From: Burkholderiales bacterium
GTDB taxonomy: Bacteria > Pseudomonadota > Gammaproteobacteria > Burkholderiales > SG8-41
NCBI GenBank assembly: GCA_022841375.1
Contig: JALHRQ010000004.1
Coordinates: 1 to 64,000 of the forward strand
Reading direction: 5' to 3'
Length of the DNA stretch: 64,000 bases
Of this stretch, positions 20,384 through 46,226 are shown piece after piece (position 1 is the first letter of the stretch; every line of letters begins with the position of its first letter). A program made the translations under genes and the position numbers. A model generated the notes under the pieces. The model made no database searches and was not told where the DNA came from. It was given only the letters and a program-made list of their open reading frames with translations.

Positions 20384-21115
20384 TTAATATTTTTCCGGCG
20401 AGCGCAGCAGTGGCGCCGTCAGCGCCGACAGGCTGACGTGTTGGCGACCCCCAGCATCGAAATTTTCCGGCGCCAGCCATTGTTCCTGCGCGGCGCAGAT
20501 TGCCGGCCATTCGCGGTCGGTGATCGAAAACCAGGCGGTGTCACGGTTGCGGCCCTTGTAGACAATCGCCTGCTGAAACAGGCCCTCGTACGAAAACCCC
20601 AGGCGCTGCGCGGCCGCGCGTGACGGCGCATTGAGCGAGTCGCACTTCCATTCATAACGCCGGTAACCGAGTACGAACGCGTTTTTCATCATCAGGTGCA
20701 TGGCTTCGGTGGCGGCGCGGGTCTGTTGCAGCAGCGGCGAAAAATTGAGGTGGCCGACTTCGATCACGCCGTTGGGCGGATCAATGCGCATGTAGGCGGC
20801 GACGCCGGCAGCCTTGCCGGTGGTGCTGTCAACGATGGCATGAAACAGCGGATCGGCGCCGAGGCAGGATGCCGCGATCCATTGTCGGTAGGACTGCAGA
20901 CTGTCGAAGGGGCCGGCGTATAAATAGGTAAATGCCCGACCGCTGGGATCGAGCCTGTTCGCGGTGTGGAGGTCTGCCGCATGGCGGGTGATGTCCAGCG
21001 GCGCGACGCGGCAATATTGTCCGGCTAGTGACTGACGCGGCGGTCGCGGCGGCGGCGTCCAATCCGGCAGCGGAAAACCGACCGGCTGGCCGAGCGGATT
21101 GAAATGCTGCGTCAC
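20384..21115 (-). CDS. GNAT-family N-acetyltransferase (RimJ/RimL-like)
   Basis: 243 residues if translation starts at the GTG at 21115, which overlaps the TGA of the upstream LeuD-like gene in a GTGA coupling. The protein then begins MTQHFNPLGQPVGFPLPDW, the usual start of this group. Later motifs ('GVIEVGHLNFSPLLQQTRAATEAM', 'YRRYEWKCDSLNAPSRAAAQRLGF') are typical of GNAT enzymes that acetylate small molecules or protein N-termini. Its coupling to an isomerase subunit looks accidental in function. It converges on the ATP-grasp gene. Confidence 0.82.
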   Translation of the reverse strand: MTQHFNPLGQPVGFPLPDWTPPPRPPRQSLAGQYCRVAPLDITRHAADLHTANRLDPSGRAFTYLYAGPFDSLQSYRQWIAASCLGADPLFHAIVDSTTGKAAGVAAYMRIDPPNGVIEVGHLNFSPLLQQTRAATEAMHLMMKNAFVLGYRRYEWKCDSLNAPSRAAAQRLGFSYEGLFQQAIVYKGRNRDTAWFSITDREWPAICAAQEQWLAPENFDAGGRQHVSLSALTAPLLRSPEKY

Positions 21116-21642
21116 GATCCGGCAGCGCGTTTGGCCTGCCACTGCTGCAGCCAGCCCGCATTGCCGCCGAGTTCGACGATTTCCATCAGTGTATCGGGAA
21201 TCGGCGGGTATTCACGGCGGATGTCGCGCGTGTGGTTGATGAAAAAGCCGTCACGGAAATTGACTTCCAGTTCATCCCCGGTCTCGCACATTTCGGTGGC
21301 ATTGACGCAGTCGGTCATCACCCGCACGCCGCAGCCGATCGCGGCGCGATAGGCGAGAAAGGGCATCGATTCGCAGAGCAGACCAAGGCCAAGCGCCTGC
21401 ATGGCGATATAACCGTTCATTTTCGGACCCATGCCGAAGTTCTTGCCGGTGACGATGATGTCGCCGGGCTGGCAGCGGGTATGAAAGCCGGGATCGGTTT
21501 CCTCGAACAGATGCGGAATGATGTCCTTCGGATCGAAGTGCCGTCCGGTGATCACCCAGTTCGGTACCACGCCGCCGGCGTGCCACACGTCATGGCCCAG
21601 CTTGTAGCAGCGGCCTTTCAATACCCATTGGAATTCGTTCAT
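21112..21642 (-). CDS. Aconitase-superfamily small subunit (LeuD-like)
   Basis: 176 residues, the swivel domain of a two-subunit hydro-lyase of the isopropylmalate isomerase/homoaconitase/dimethylmaleate hydratase type. 'ITGRHFDPKDIIPHLFEE' and 'GDIIVTGKNFGMG' match the substrate-binding loop region. Its partner large subunits are the two genes at 22056 and 23388 on the same strand. A GIY-YIG cassette (21671-22036) sits between the small and large subunits. Authentic leucine-pathway context (leuA, leuB) is absent, so a catabolic hydratase is as likely as LeuD. Confidence 0.82.
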   Translation of the reverse strand: MNEFQWVLKGRCYKLGHDVWHAGGVVPNWVITGRHFDPKDIIPHLFEETDPGFHTRCQPGDIIVTGKNFGMGPKMNGYIAMQALGLGLLCESMPFLAYRAAIGCGVRVMTDCVNATEMCETGDELEVNFRDGFFINHTRDIRREYPPIPDTLMEIVELGGNAGWLQQWQAKRAAGS

Positions 21643-21670: not shown

Positions 21671-22036
21671 CGTCATTCCGGCGCAAGCCGGAATCCAGGG
21701 AAATCCCGCAAGACTGATCAAATCAGATTCTTGTATAGGTCGATCCATTGCGGATTTTCCTTTTCGATCAGTTCCAGCTTCCACTTTCTTTTCCATGTCT
21801 TTATGGCTTTTTCGCGAGTTATGGCTGACGCCATCGTTTCATGCATCTCAAACCAGACCAGGGTATGTACGCCATAACGCTGGGTAAACCCTTTGACGAC
21901 ATCATTTTTGTGTTCCCAGATGCGTTTGACAATGTCTGAAGTTACACCCGTGTATAAAGTGCCGTTTCGTTTGCTTGCCAGTATGTATACACAAGGTTGC
22001 TTCACGGTCTGGATTCCGGCTTTCGCCGGAATGACG
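21671..22036. mobile_element. GIY-YIG cassette bounded by 28-bp inverted repeats
   Basis: The left arm (21671-21698) and right arm (22009-22036) are reverse complements with one mismatch in 28 bases. Each arm is itself a hairpin, with core ATTCCGGC / GCCGGAAT around a four-base loop. Between them is a single small nuclease gene with 19 and 3 bp of spare sequence. The unit interrupts the LeuD-like/LeuC-like gene pair. The same ATTCCGG/CCGGAAT core recurs as a lone hairpin at 46197-46226. The layout suggests a minimal mobile element or a repeat-associated nuclease gene; movement is inferred. Confidence 0.65.
21718..22005 (-). CDS. Small GIY-YIG nuclease-domain protein
   Basis: 95 residues, a stand-alone GIY-YIG domain of the URI/YhbQ-like type. 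Catalytic landmarks are Y7 ('VYIL'), Y18 ('LYTG'), R28, H32 and E65 in 'ITREKAIKTWKRKWK', all present, so it should be active. The start is GTG at 22005, only three bases inside the right inverted repeat, so the repeat arm (GGAAT) probably supplies the ribosome site. Codon use looks more AT-rich than that of its neighbours. Members are common near palindromic repeats in proteobacteria, but their role is not settled. Confidence 0.88.
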   Translation of the reverse strand: MKQPCVYILASKRNGTLYTGVTSDIVKRIWEHKNDVVKGFTQRYGVHTLVWFEMHETMASAITREKAIKTWKRKWKLELIEKENPQWIDLYKNLI

Positions 22037-22055: not shown

Positions 22056-23321
22056 TCACAGTTTTCTTGCATCGGTGATTTTTCCGGCGACGGCGGATGC
22101 GGCAACGGTTGCGGGACTGCCGAGATAGAGTCTGGCGTCGCGCGCACCGAAACGCCCGGCGTTGTTGTTGGTGGCCGTCGACAGCGAGACTTCGCCCGAA
22201 TGCACCGGACCGATCACGGCGTCGTTGCAAGGGCCGCAGCCCGGCGGCAGCATCACCGCACCGGCATCGATGAACACGCCGAGCAGACCTTCGCTGGCCA
22301 GACGGCGGTTGGTGGCTTCGGAGCCCGGGGCGACGAACAGCCGGACATTCGGCGCCAATCGCCGGCCCTTGAGAATGGAAGCTGCCGTTACCAGGTCTTC
22401 CCACATGCCGGAGCCGCAGGAGCCGATGAAGGCGTGATCGATGACGGTGCCTTCAACTACAGAAACATCAACCGCATTTTCAACACTGCCTGGCAGCGAC
22501 ACCTGCGGTTCAAGTTTGGCGATGTTGAGCGTGAGATCGGCGTCGTAACGCGCATCGGCATCGGAATACACCGGTGTGAACGGCCGTTGTCCGCGCGCCT
22601 TTGCATGATCGAGAATCGCTTGTGACGGCGGCACGAATACGCCGTAGGCGCGGATTTCGGTTGGCGTGGAGCACAAGGCGGCGCGCGAGGCGAGATCGAA
22701 CTGGTCGAGGTCGCCGGCGTATTCGAGCACGCGGTAATCGAGATCAGCGGAAAGCGCACCCTGTTTGAGCAGGGCGGCGAAATGGAAGCCGACATCGCGC
22801 GCATGCACACCGGGCTGCAATTGACCCTTGAGGGTCAGGCGCACTGTTTTCGGCACCATTACCCAGTTGGTGCCGGTGGCGAGCACGCGGGAAATTTCAG
22901 AGCCCATGCGGAAACCGAAGGCGCCGATGGCGCCGGCGTTGGTGGCATGGCGGTCGTTGTCGAAATAGAACATGCCGGGCAGCAGCAGGCCCATCTCCAT
23001 CGGGAAGATATGGCCGTGGCCGCCGCGGCCGACATCGAAAAAATTCTTCACGCCCCATTGCGCCGCCGCCTTGCGGTTGAAGGCGCCGCGTTCGGCGGCG
23101 CGCGCGCTGCCGTAAATCACGTCATGGTCGGTGACCATCATCACCTTGTCCGGCGTTGCCAGCCGGGTGATGCCCAGTGCATCGAGTTCACGCTTGGCGC
23201 CCATCACCACGCCATCGTGGATCATGATGAAGTCGGGGTCGGGGGATACCACATCCCCCGGCTTGATGTTGCTGCGTCCGCTTTTTGCAGCCAGCACTTT
23301 TTCAACTGCGGTCATGCCCAT
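22056..23321 (-). CDS. Aconitase-superfamily large subunit (LeuC-like), copy 1
   Basis: 421 residues, the iron-sulfur subunit of a two-part hydro-lyase. The three cluster cysteines are in 'FIGSCGSGMWEDL' and 'PPGCGPC'. 'MMVTDHDVIYGSARAAERG' and 'RGGHGHIFPMEMGLLLPG' are the substrate-side loops. It is shorter than typical LeuC (about 465) and close to the homoaconitase/dimethylmaleate-hydratase branch. The gene lies between a paralogue (upstream) and the inserted GIY-YIG cassette (downstream). The start ATG lacks a clear ribosome site. Confidence 0.83.
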   Translation of the reverse strand: MGMTAVEKVLAAKSGRSNIKPGDVVSPDPDFIMIHDGVVMGAKRELDALGITRLATPDKVMMVTDHDVIYGSARAAERGAFNRKAAAQWGVKNFFDVGRGGHGHIFPMEMGLLLPGMFYFDNDRHATNAGAIGAFGFRMGSEISRVLATGTNWVMVPKTVRLTLKGQLQPGVHARDVGFHFAALLKQGALSADLDYRVLEYAGDLDQFDLASRAALCSTPTEIRAYGVFVPPSQAILDHAKARGQRPFTPVYSDADARYDADLTLNIAKLEPQVSLPGSVENAVDVSVVEGTVIDHAFIGSCGSGMWEDLVTAASILKGRRLAPNVRLFVAPGSEATNRRLASEGLLGVFIDAGAVMLPPGCGPCNDAVIGPVHSGEVSLSTATNNNAGRFGARDARLYLGSPATVAASAVAGKITDARKL

Positions 23322-23387: not shown

Positions 23388-24659
23388 TCACAGGAATTCC
23401 CGGGGGTCGGTGATGCTTCCGGTGACCGCGGATGCCGCGACGGTGGCCGGGCTGCCGAGGTAGAGCTGTGCGTCTTTGGCACCAAAACGGCCGGCACCAT
23501 TGGCAACTGCTGTGGAGATTGAAACTTCTCCCGAATCAATCAGTCCGGTGCGACCGCTGGCGCAGGGGCCGCAACCGGCCGGAATCACCATCGCACCGGC
23601 ATCATGGAAAATATCGAGCAGGCCTTCGCGGGTCATGCGCCGCGTGGAATCTTCTGTTCCCGGCACCACGATCATGCGCACGCCCGGTGCAAGCTTGCGG
23701 CCCTTGAGAATGGATGCGGCGATTTCGAGGTCTTCATACATGCCGGAAGCACAGGAGCCGATGTAAGTGTGGCTCACCGGCGTGCCGGCGACGCTGGCAA
23801 GGTCGGCGGCCTTGTGCGGGCCGCCGGGCAACGCGACCTGGGGCGGCAGGGCGCTGACGTCGAGTTCAACCTTCGCATCGTAGTGTGCGTCGGCATCGGC
23901 ATAGACCGGCGTGAAGGGTCGTTGCGCACGTTCTTTGGCGTAGGCCAGTATCGCTTCCGACGGAGGAAAAAAAACACCGATGGCGCGCATCTCGGTCGGC
24001 GTGCTGCACAGGGACATACGTGCGGCGAGGCTGAACTGGTCAAGGTCACCGGCAAATTCCAGTACCCGGTAATCGATGTCGACACCGAATGCGCCGTCTT
24101 CGCCCAACTGTTTACCGATGATAAACCCCAGATCGCGCGCAAACACGCCGGGCTGCAGTTTGCCCTTGATGGTCAGCTGGACCGACTTCGGTACCAGCGT
24201 CCAGTTGGTGCCGGTGGCAAGAACGCGGTTGATTTCAGTGCCCATGCGGATCGCCAGTGCGCCGATGCCGCCGGCATTGGTGCAGTGACGGTCATTGTCA
24301 AAATACAATGTGCCGGGCAGCACCCAGCCGCGTTCGGTCGGGAAGATGTGGCCGTGGCCGCCACGCCCGGCATCAAAAAAGTTTTTGACGCCCCAGGCTT
24401 GAGCGGCCTTGCGATTGAAGGCGCCGCGGGCCGCTGCACGGTCGTTGACATACACCACGTCATGGTCGGTGACCATCAGCACGCGTTCGGGATCAAACAG
24501 CCGGGTGATGCCCAAGGCGTCGAGTTCTTCCTTGGCGCCGCGTACCACGCCGTCATGGATCATCACAAAATCAGGCTGCGGGTAAACGATGTCGCCGGCC
24601 TTGACGGTAGCTCGTCCGCTGGTGCGGGCCAGTATTTTCTCTGCGGCGGTCATGCCCAT
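23388..24659 (-). CDS. Aconitase-superfamily large subunit (LeuC-like), copy 2
   Basis: 423 residues starting 'MGMTAAEKILARTSGR', which aligns end to end with the neighbouring paralogue's 'MGMTAVEKVLAAKSGR'; that is why I prefer 24659 to the ATG at 24680. The cluster cysteines are kept in 'YIGSCASGMYEDL' and 'AGCGPC'. Two large subunits and one small subunit lie on the same strand, so either both share the small subunit or one has another partner. The gap to the next copy is 66 bp. It diverges from the Bug gene at 24782 over 122 bp. Role: probably hydration or isomerisation of a substituted malate/maleate. Confidence 0.83.
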   Translation of the reverse strand: MGMTAAEKILARTSGRATVKAGDIVYPQPDFVMIHDGVVRGAKEELDALGITRLFDPERVLMVTDHDVVYVNDRAAARGAFNRKAAQAWGVKNFFDAGRGGHGHIFPTERGWVLPGTLYFDNDRHCTNAGGIGALAIRMGTEINRVLATGTNWTLVPKSVQLTIKGKLQPGVFARDLGFIIGKQLGEDGAFGVDIDYRVLEFAGDLDQFSLAARMSLCSTPTEMRAIGVFFPPSEAILAYAKERAQRPFTPVYADADAHYDAKVELDVSALPPQVALPGGPHKAADLASVAGTPVSHTYIGSCASGMYEDLEIAASILKGRKLAPGVRMIVVPGTEDSTRRMTREGLLDIFHDAGAMVIPAGCGPCASGRTGLIDSGEVSISTAVANGAGRFGAKDAQLYLGSPATVAASAVTGSITDPREFL

Positions 24660-24781
24660 CGTGGAATTCCGTTTGTGCAAGTCAGGGTGTAGCCGCGATA
24701 CGCAGCCGGCGAAGAGTATAACGTGACGTTTCCCGCAAACGGCGTGCTATATTTTGTCGACACTTCAGCGAAGGAGTTCAC

Positions 24782-25768
24782 ATGACGCAAGTCCGGTATG
24801 CGGCAATATTTGTTCTGGCAGTTTTCGCGGGCGCCGTTGCCGAGGCGGAGGCGCAATGGAAACCGGACAAGCCGATCGAGATTGTTGCACCGTCCGGTCC
24901 CGGTGGCACCACCGATCGCACCGCACGTGTGGTCGCGAAAATCCTGATCCAGCACAAACTGGTCGACGTGCCGGTCAACGTGGTCAACAAACCCGGCGGC
25001 AGCGGTACCATCGGGCTTAATTACCTGAACCAGCATCCGGGCGACGGCCATTACATGATCGTGGCCACCACCGGCTCGATCAGCAACCACATCCTCGGCC
25101 TGATCCCGTACAACCACACTGCGTTTACGCCGCTGTCGATGCTGTTCGAGGAATACCTCGGCGTCAACGTGCGCAGCGAGTCGCCGATCAAGACCGGCAG
25201 GGATCTGGTGGAAATGCTCAAAAAGAATCCGGAGTCCGCCAGTTTCGGCATTTCCACCAGCCTCGGCGGCGCCAACCACACCACGCTGATCACCTGTCTG
25301 CGTGCCGGGGGGGTCGACATCAGGAAGCTGAAGGCCGCGGTGTTTCCCGGCGGTTCTGCCACCACCACCGCCGTGCTCGGCGGTCACGTCGATGTTGTCA
25401 ACACGGGTTTGGGCAATATGGTCGCGCATCTGCGCACCGGCAAGCTGCGTACGCTGGCGATTTCCTCGCCGAAACGGATGTGGGGTGACTTTGCGTCGAT
25501 ACCGACCTGGCGCGAGCAGGGCGTGCCTGCGGACTCTTCAAGCTGGCGCGGGCTGATGGGGCCCCGGGGCATGACGTCGCAGCAGATCGCCTATTGGGAC
25601 AAGGTGATGGCGGCGATGGCTGCGACCGACGACTGGAAAAAAGAGTTGGAGGAAAACTTCTGGGTCAACGGCTATGTCAACGCCCAGGCGGCCAAAAAAC
25701 GCCTCGATGAGGAATACATCGAGTATCAGACGGTGCTGACCGAAGTGGGGCTGGCCAAGGCCAAATAA
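24782..25768 (+). CDS. Bug/TctC periplasmic solute receptor (3), divergent branch
   Basis: 328 residues. A signal peptide ends near 'AVAEAEA|QW'. It keeps 'PDKPIEIVAPSGPGGTTDR' and 'VNVVNKPGGSGTIG' but differs from the other receptors in the DGY loop ('PGDGHYMIVATTGS'), so it belongs to a separate sub-branch. GAAGGAG lies five bases before the ATG, and TATATT at 24748 is a possible -10. It diverges from the LeuC-like pair; a shared control region and a substituted dicarboxylate ligand are plausible. Confidence 0.88.
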   Translation: MTQVRYAAIFVLAVFAGAVAEAEAQWKPDKPIEIVAPSGPGGTTDRTARVVAKILIQHKLVDVPVNVVNKPGGSGTIGLNYLNQHPGDGHYMIVATTGSISNHILGLIPYNHTAFTPLSMLFEEYLGVNVRSESPIKTGRDLVEMLKKNPESASFGISTSLGGANHTTLITCLRAGGVDIRKLKAAVFPGGSATTTAVLGGHVDVVNTGLGNMVAHLRTGKLRTLAISSPKRMWGDFASIPTWREQGVPADSSSWRGLMGPRGMTSQQIAYWDKVMAAMAATDDWKKELEENFWVNGYVNAQAAKKRLDEEYIEYQTVLTEVGLAKAK

Positions 25769-46196: not shown

Positions 46197-46226
46197 CCTT
46201 CATTCCGGTGAAAACCGGAATGAAGG
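46197..46226. repeat. Perfect hairpin between the AAA and VWA genes
   Basis: A 13-bp perfect stem with a GAAA loop has core CATTCCGG/CCGGAATG. This is the same core as the arms of the GIY-YIG cassette at 21671-22036, so it is probably a solo copy of that repeat. It starts 10 bp after the ATPase stop and may uncouple or tune the two genes. It is not followed by a clean T-run. Confidence 0.75.

Follow-up and report, generated by a model that had tools for sequence, protein, structure and literature searches.

A known system close to the locus analysed here is the REPtron, in which a small nuclease gene (RAYT, encoding TnpA_REP) is flanked by cognate REPs. These genes form diverged paralogues in which enzyme and REP type are paired, and the genome also holds gene-less REPs and REP doublets. 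The unit described below has the same organization, but its enzyme is a GIY-YIG protein (PF01541) whereas that of the REPtrons is of the HuH/Y1 kind, and the REP head in its family is CGTC (or TGTC, CCTC) rather than GTAG. TnpA_REP, according to the excerpted text of the source, binds the folded single-stranded REP and cuts next to it (PMC8266576).

The repeats of the unit belong with the CGTC-tagged REPs surveyed in 2013 (Di Nocera 2013). In the excerpted text of that survey (PMC3733652), this superfamily is known from five phyla and is said to "apparently lack a dedicated transposase"; its CGTC-1 class, which includes the dRS3 repeats of Neisseria, is defined by a CGTC head, an 8-bp stem starting with A-T pairs, a 4-nt loop and a CCA tail. 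The survey left the origin of these REPs open because no enzyme was found beside them. The dRS3 repeats and the RPE-4 and RPE-6 repeats of Rickettsia share with the repeats of our unit the head, the 8-bp stem, the loop, the tail and the occurrence as dimers; the survey reported no dedicated enzyme, whereas here a GIY-YIG clade is paired with these REPs.

On the protein side, UPF0213 and other small single-domain GIY-YIG proteins (1zg2, 1ywl) are like the 95-aa protein of the unit in fold and size but only weakly similar in sequence (E 0.0025 and 0.036 for UPF0213 PDB chains). Nucleases of the Slx1 and I-TevI types have the same catalytic fold, whereas the 95-aa protein is the nuclease domain alone, with no fused DNA-binding tail. 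Among the papers matched in an open-access literature search, none links UPF0213 or the small GIY-YIG proteins to REPs, and among the matches listed, as judged from titles, abstract starts and term counts, none links GIY-YIG nucleases to REPs, REPINs, dRS3 or CGTC repeats; subscription papers and preprints fall mostly outside the scope of this search, and priority is unproved. The words 'nuclease', 'RAYT' and 'transposase' are absent from the main text of the 2025 RepRanger paper, and PMC10928387 has three term matches, all unrelated.

In the 64-kb stretch of Burkholderiales bacterium DNA analysed here (the window), a 366-bp unit at 21671-22036 consists of an arm, a GIY-YIG gene and an inverted arm. 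As originally predicted, it lies inside the gap between a leuC-like and a leuD-like gene:

21112-21642, minus strand: leuD-like small subunit, downstream neighbour, a host gene outside the unit; no Pfam match
21671-21698, plus strand: downstream arm, a CGTC-tagged REP; head CGTC, stem ATTCCGGC, loop GCAA, tail CCAG; head outward
21718-22005, minus strand: GIY-YIG nuclease gene, 95 aa, GTG start; PF01541, E 6e-17
22009-22036, minus strand: upstream arm, a CGTC-tagged REP; head CGTC, stem ATTCCGGC, loop GAAA, tail CCAG; head outward
22056-23321, minus strand: aconitase/leuC-like large subunit, upstream neighbour, a host gene outside the unit; PF00330

The downstream neighbour, for lack of a Pfam match, is presumed to be leuD-like from its place and a motif. 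The upstream neighbour is one of two aconitase/leuC-like large-subunit genes in tandem (22056-23321 and 23388-24680). A TctC-type receptor gene lies close by (24782-25768).

The arms, 28 nt each and 310 nt apart, are inverted and complementary at 27/28 positions (96%), the single mismatch having been seen in the original prediction. From the head they read CGTC-ATTCCGGC-GNAA-GCCGGAAT-CCAG, and both heads point outward; 3 bases separate the GTG start of the nuclease gene from the inner end of one arm, also as first described. As DNA, each arm forms a hairpin of 8-bp stem and 4-nt loop, at -9.0 kcal/mol (z -3.1) for the first and -9.5 kcal/mol (z -4.4) for the second, whose fold has 3 extra pairs beyond this stem; 0/200 shuffles were as stable. 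The arms are canonical CGTC-tagged REPs, with a CGTC head, an 8-bp stem whose first pairs are A-T, a 4-nt loop and a CCA tail, and they share with the superfamily the occurrence in many copies and as dimers. The window's genome contains 21 exact copies of CGTCATTCCN10GGAATCC, both unit arms counted, and five stretches of it that were examined contain 7 head-outward REP doublets of 76-115 bp. Within the window, the palindrome core has 4 matches with up to 3 mismatches against a shuffle mean of 0.57 (n=100; none reached 4). The location of the unit and of two doublet sites was checked to be intergenic. Scans of the window for Rfam families and tRNAs returned none.

The window also contains a hairpin at 46197-46226 that had been described as a solo arm with the same core. 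The hairpin is real, with a 13-bp stem, and shares the ATTCCGG core, but it is no canonical solo arm: the CGTC head and the CCA tail are absent, the ends are symmetric (CCTTCA...TGAAGG), and it begins about 10 bp past the stop of an open reading frame. It may be a terminator-like hairpin or a decayed double-headed palindrome.

The 95-aa protein belongs to the GIY-YIG superfamily by its PF01541 domain, its sole Pfam match, its catalytic residues and its fold; it has no family in NCBIfam, PHROGs or PADLOC. Residues Y7, Y18, G20, R28, H32, E65, K69, R73 and N84 are each conserved in at least 99% of the sequences of 140 relatives, and we take the conserved Tyr, Tyr, Arg, Glu and Asn to be those of the GIY-YIG active site. 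The confident AlphaFold2 model (pLDDT 95.8) has as its nearest structures in Foldseek the nuclease domains of UPF0213, Slx1 and UvrC, with modest scores, the top match, to UPF0213, at E 0.0018 and none at or below 0.001; ranks 1-15 are GIY-YIG proteins, and the lower ranks are unrelated and weak. WD-40 designer proteins among the PDB sequence matches were discounted as artefacts. The nuclease is under purifying selection, and its active site is conserved: dN/dS is 0.04-0.10 in 8/10 pairs of the five genus orthologues, the other 2 pairs being saturated at dS. The protein is little more than a nuclease domain, and its specificity must therefore come from that domain or from DNA shape. Phage matches are confined to 10 records, all from Rhizobium phages, with 39-40% identity over less than 80% of the protein.

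The pairing of the gene with CGTC REPs extends across its family. The 80 nearest relatives (the best 80 of 133; 57-85% identical) were found in genome contigs by protein sequence alone, and the record titles of their genomes, which can be wrong for metagenome bins, name Pseudomonadota groups, Nitrospinota, Chloroflexi, Cyanobacteria, Aminicenantes, Nitrospirota and others. A strict REP finder (perfect stem of at least 6, GTCA head, TCCA tail), whose counts are low because imperfect arms are missed when a perfect stem is required, places a REP within 200 bp of the gene in 64/80 relatives and on both sides in 44/80. The density of REPs is about 31 times higher within 200 bp of the gene (138 in 31,681 bp) than beyond 1 kb (68 in 484,576 bp). 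The head of the nearest REP points outward in 41/53 cases upstream (41 vs 12) and 39/55 downstream (39 vs 16), and inward at about a quarter of the loci; where head-outward REPs are found on both sides (33 loci), the median gene-arm gaps are 21 and 21 nt. With three loci dropped (L034, L035 and L036, which match the genus members G015, G004 and G006 in place, length and identity), 41 of the 77 remaining nuclease genes have REPs on both sides, compared with 1/270 other ORFs of at least 100 aa in the same loci, and 61/77 compared with 33/270 have one on any side. A further set of 36 loci was taken from genomes related to that of the window and includes more distant genes; here the strict finder detects a REP upstream in 12, downstream in 19 and on both sides in 10.

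A motif-free test, in which the left flank is compared with the reverse complement of the right flank (score of at least 15), finds inverted-repeat flanks in 100/149 closer relatives, 1/32 distant GIY-YIG genes and 10/1168 random positions. The 149 comprise 75 + 36 + 32 + 6 loci, 2 of the 77 having flanks that were too short, and include one gene (L142) that falls outside the clade on the tree; L206 was dropped from this test. CGTC REPs occur near 0/33 distant GIY-YIG genes, L206, which has no match, being represented by the midpoint of its stretch; with a wider downstream window, 5/32 distant genes reach the score against 7/1142 random positions. A fresh set of viral contigs yields matched flanks for 28/35 genes at 45% identity or above, one of them a duplicate and one further locus at a contig edge omitted, compared with 0/7 genes below this level and 0/20 random positions. 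On a protein tree of 172 rows, made by a quick method from few columns, matched flanks of any stem are present on 111 rows, of which 106 belong to one 140-row group (SH-aLRT 98); the rest of this group consists of 33 rows without matched flanks and a single distant row on a long branch.

The 5 flanked rows outside this group are distant genes with another palindrome, CCGTTCGCCCTGAGCCTGTCGAAGGGCG, which brackets 5/32 distant GIY-YIG genes in inverted orientation (L205, L183, L190, L195 and L203). One of these, L205 (G000:C14:59627-60857), is a second-subfamily copy in the window's own genome. All five belong to one 8-row group of the tree, in which the other three rows lack a matched pair. These flanks weaken the distant genes as a clean palindrome control, even with CGTC REPs still lacking there, and suggest that partnership with REPs may be common in small GIY-YIG nucleases.

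Paralogues within a genome tend to go with arms of their own type. For 59 gene copies fetched from 20 genomes with two or more copies each, similarity between the two arms of a copy exceeds their similarity to any arm of the other copies fetched from that genome in 47/59 cases, falls below it in 10 and equals it in 2 (Wilcoxon p 2e-8, 59 copies). A single genome can carry several copies, such as the 7 of Sphingobium xenophagum, and identity between copies of one genome is 44-86% over 59 pairs. The closest of these pairs, at 86% (a Nitrospinota genome), 83% (Tistlia) and 77% (a Nitrospinae genome), are among those with a common arm type, a pattern that joint divergence of arm and protein would produce. 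The three REP types that were counted across genomes, gene-flanking arms included, are confined to genomes with the matching gene, save for one near-match in a Nitrobacter genome: one type occurs 18 and 37 times in two Sphingobium genomes and is absent from 4 others, a second type has 24, 8 and 1 copies in three genomes and 0 in 5, and a Tistlia type has 4 copies in Tistlia and 0 in 7 others. The type of the tail (CC or CT) along the protein tree was set aside as a further indicator, its signal being weak (8 and 11 of 500 shuffles as low) in 86 parsed arms of which several are misparsed (the tail 'GAC' is a doublet read).

The REP load of a genome correlates with the presence of the gene. Among 120 relative genomes, with a close gene defined by at least 78 bits (a cut set where scores drop from 78 to 48 bits), at least 5 ATTCC-type REPs are present in 24/29 genomes with a close gene compared with 18/91 without (p 1.4e-9). 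Permutation within genera, of which five are informative, never reaches the observed difference in REP load (0/20,000). The 5/29 close-gene genomes that are poor in ATTCC-type REPs include one with a single copy and four with none; the genes in three of these four have other matched flanks (L136, L138, L139), and the fourth has none (L131). As with REPs in RAYT systems, most arms in each genome lie away from any GIY-YIG gene.

In the genus, 21 genomes were searched and 18 homologous leuC-leuD gaps were recovered. The unit is present in 5, and it is missing from 13/18, contrary to retention at this locus in all relatives: 10 are short gaps without the unit, 2 contain an unrelated palindromic repeat, and 1 (G014, L155) contains a double-headed palindrome CGTC...GACG that resembles the outer halves of both arms joined. 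Placed on a tree built from the flanking genes, the distribution of the unit takes 5 changes (4 forced); in this tree G014 is the sister of the unit-bearing G001. The simplest account is an old insertion in the genus that was repeatedly lost, with G014 retaining a scar; some re-insertion of the unit may also have occurred. The comparison of loci that the original prediction called for produced gaps without the unit but no visible target-site duplication, either at the leuC-leuD gap or at the two doublet sites, the flanks having diverged at all of these. The unit is fixed at one site in the genus and the copies within a genome are 44-86% identical; therefore, no recent transposition of the gene-bearing unit is seen.

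Gene-less doublets are present at some homologous sites and absent from others, and the arms bound these doublets as they bound the gene-bearing unit. At the first doublet site, the window's genome (G000) has the doublet, and the 18 relatives show a doublet in 2 (G015, G006), a short gap in 5, something else in 9 and no anchor in 2. All three genomes with the doublet at this site carry the unit; the unit-bearing G004 and G001 have a different sequence there. At the second site, among 6 relatives, G015 has the doublet, G005 has none, G003 retains a short remnant, and 3 lack the anchor. Among Rhizobium plasmids, a doublet present in two and absent from one was rejected as a clean insertion polymorphism, the junction being unclean. 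Neighbouring gene-less REPs are arranged head-outward in 66 pairs, head-inward in 32 and in the same direction in 19. Double-headed palindromes GTCA...TGAC were found in 8 cases besides L155 (L049, L058, L065, L088, L101, L104, L126, L219) and double-tailed ones in 0; the double-headed forms may have been left by deletions between head-outward arms, and the one at L065 may be due to chance.

Other palindromic repeats occupy the same intergenic sites. The leuC-leuD gaps of G003 and G011 (L149, L154) and the doublet site (L284, L289, L293, L295, L298, L290) hold repeats that are CACAGAGGACACAGAG-like, CCCTCACCCCAACCCTCTCCC-like or TTCGACAGGCTCAGGGCGAAC; therefore, some gaps gather unrelated repeats.

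The association with REPs, the cognate specificity, the REP load, the insertion polymorphism and the selection on the protein all support the two-part parallel to REP/RAYT systems that was proposed at the outset. We consider it probable that the unit is a REPtron built on a GIY-YIG nuclease in place of the HuH transposase, an enzyme that would cut and spread REPs. The autonomous form would be the nuclease gene with a copy of its cognate CGTC-tagged REP at each end, and the gene-less REPs and head-outward doublets elsewhere in the genome would be its non-autonomous followers. The GIY-YIG protein would recognise the REP hairpin in single-stranded or extruded DNA by its head, its stem and its stable GNNA/GNAB loop, and its single Tyr/Arg/Glu/metal active site would make a hydrolytic cut at or near the head. 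The cut would free or open a REP-bounded segment, which host replication and repair could copy or re-insert between genes. We infer by analogy that the protein binds and cuts the REP and that cutting drives its spread. GIY-YIG enzymes are hydrolytic and we know of no strand-transfer chemistry among them, which counts against such a mechanism of spread.

These observations suggest that a class of repeated DNA widespread among bacteria has its missing partner in this GIY-YIG family, and a dedicated nuclease clade with paralogue-specific arms brings to the origin of CGTC REPs a protein, a substrate and simple tests. If the proposed reading is true, the arrangement of REP plus nuclease arose with two unrelated enzyme folds, and many genes annotated merely as 'GIY-YIG nuclease family protein' would gain a role. 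The widest version, which we hold tentatively and as possible rather than probable, is that a large GIY-YIG clade of small proteins, present in several phyla by record titles, mobilises CGTC REPs, dRS3-like ones included, each paralogue moving its own type by hydrolytic cutting of hairpins, and that a second clade does likewise for TTCGACAGGCTCAGG-type palindromes, so that spread of REPs by nucleases unrelated to transposases would be general.

The main rival, unlikely in our estimate, is that a host-domesticated, structure-specific nuclease clears or resolves REP hairpins or cruciforms and so limits their harm without spreading them. Purifying selection on the nuclease and the fixed site of the unit in the genus would fit such a role, as would the likeness in structure, with modest scores, to Slx1, a nuclease of branched DNA; the scar in G014 and the excess of double-headed over double-tailed palindromes (8 vs 0) suggest deletions between arms. 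This role leaves unexplained why head-outward REPs bracket the nuclease gene, and REPs are more rather than fewer where the gene is present, a correlation that a guard retained for many REPs would likewise produce.

Less likely again is a selfish gene of the homing type, whose enzyme would cut REP-bearing or empty intergenic sites so that repair of the double-strand break copies the unit in, the REPs serving only as landing sites. GIY-YIG nucleases are classic homing enzymes, and along the host gene tree leuC-leuD gaps with the unit alternate with empty ones. Homing sits poorly with the tendency of paralogues in one genome toward different REPs and with the same head-outward geometry in gene-less pairs, and the deletion-like scar in the leuC-leuD gap of G014 points to loss.

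We consider it improbable that a RAYT or another transposase moves the CGTC REPs, with the GIY-YIG gene a passenger between two of them. In the excerpted text of PMC8266576, IS200/IS605-type enzymes act on GTAG-type REPs, and Y1_Tnp matches are present in 10/21 genus genomes. Yet none of the 29 Y1_Tnp loci of the genus (2.1-3.3 kb each) contains a CGTC REP, G015 and G006 have the unit and REP doublets without a Y1_Tnp match, and recurrence across several phyla, by genome titles, with paralogue-specific arms would be unexpected of a passenger. The excerpted text of the 2013 survey likewise reports no CGTC-flanked tyrosine transposase gene in CGTC-positive species (PMC3733652).

The loops of the REPs give a hint, no stronger because the copies are related by descent, that the hairpin acts as DNA: of the 250 4-nt loops in 323 REPs with stems of at least 8, 244 fit GNNA or GNAB, the tetraloops described as stable in DNA in the excerpted text of PMC8373063, and 107 fit the RNA rule GNRA. 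This preference, the head and tail motifs beyond the stem, the many arm copies without a gene and the presence of an arm before the start of the gene in addition to the one after its end make it the least probable of the readings that the arms, close to the gene and stably folded as they are, serve the nuclease gene as transcription terminators or as hairpins that stabilise its mRNA, and that ordinary gene transfer spread them.

Three further observations concern individual loci. In Neisseria gonorrhoeae, a gene 60% identical to that of the unit sits between CGTC REP doublets (L253). A member of the clade on a plasmid of Planktothrix agardhii lies between an MmeI-type restriction gene and the DISARM gene drmA (L256). 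Some REP loops contain a nested insert with GAAGGAAGT / ACTTCCTTC sequence (L251, and also L047, L263 and L283).
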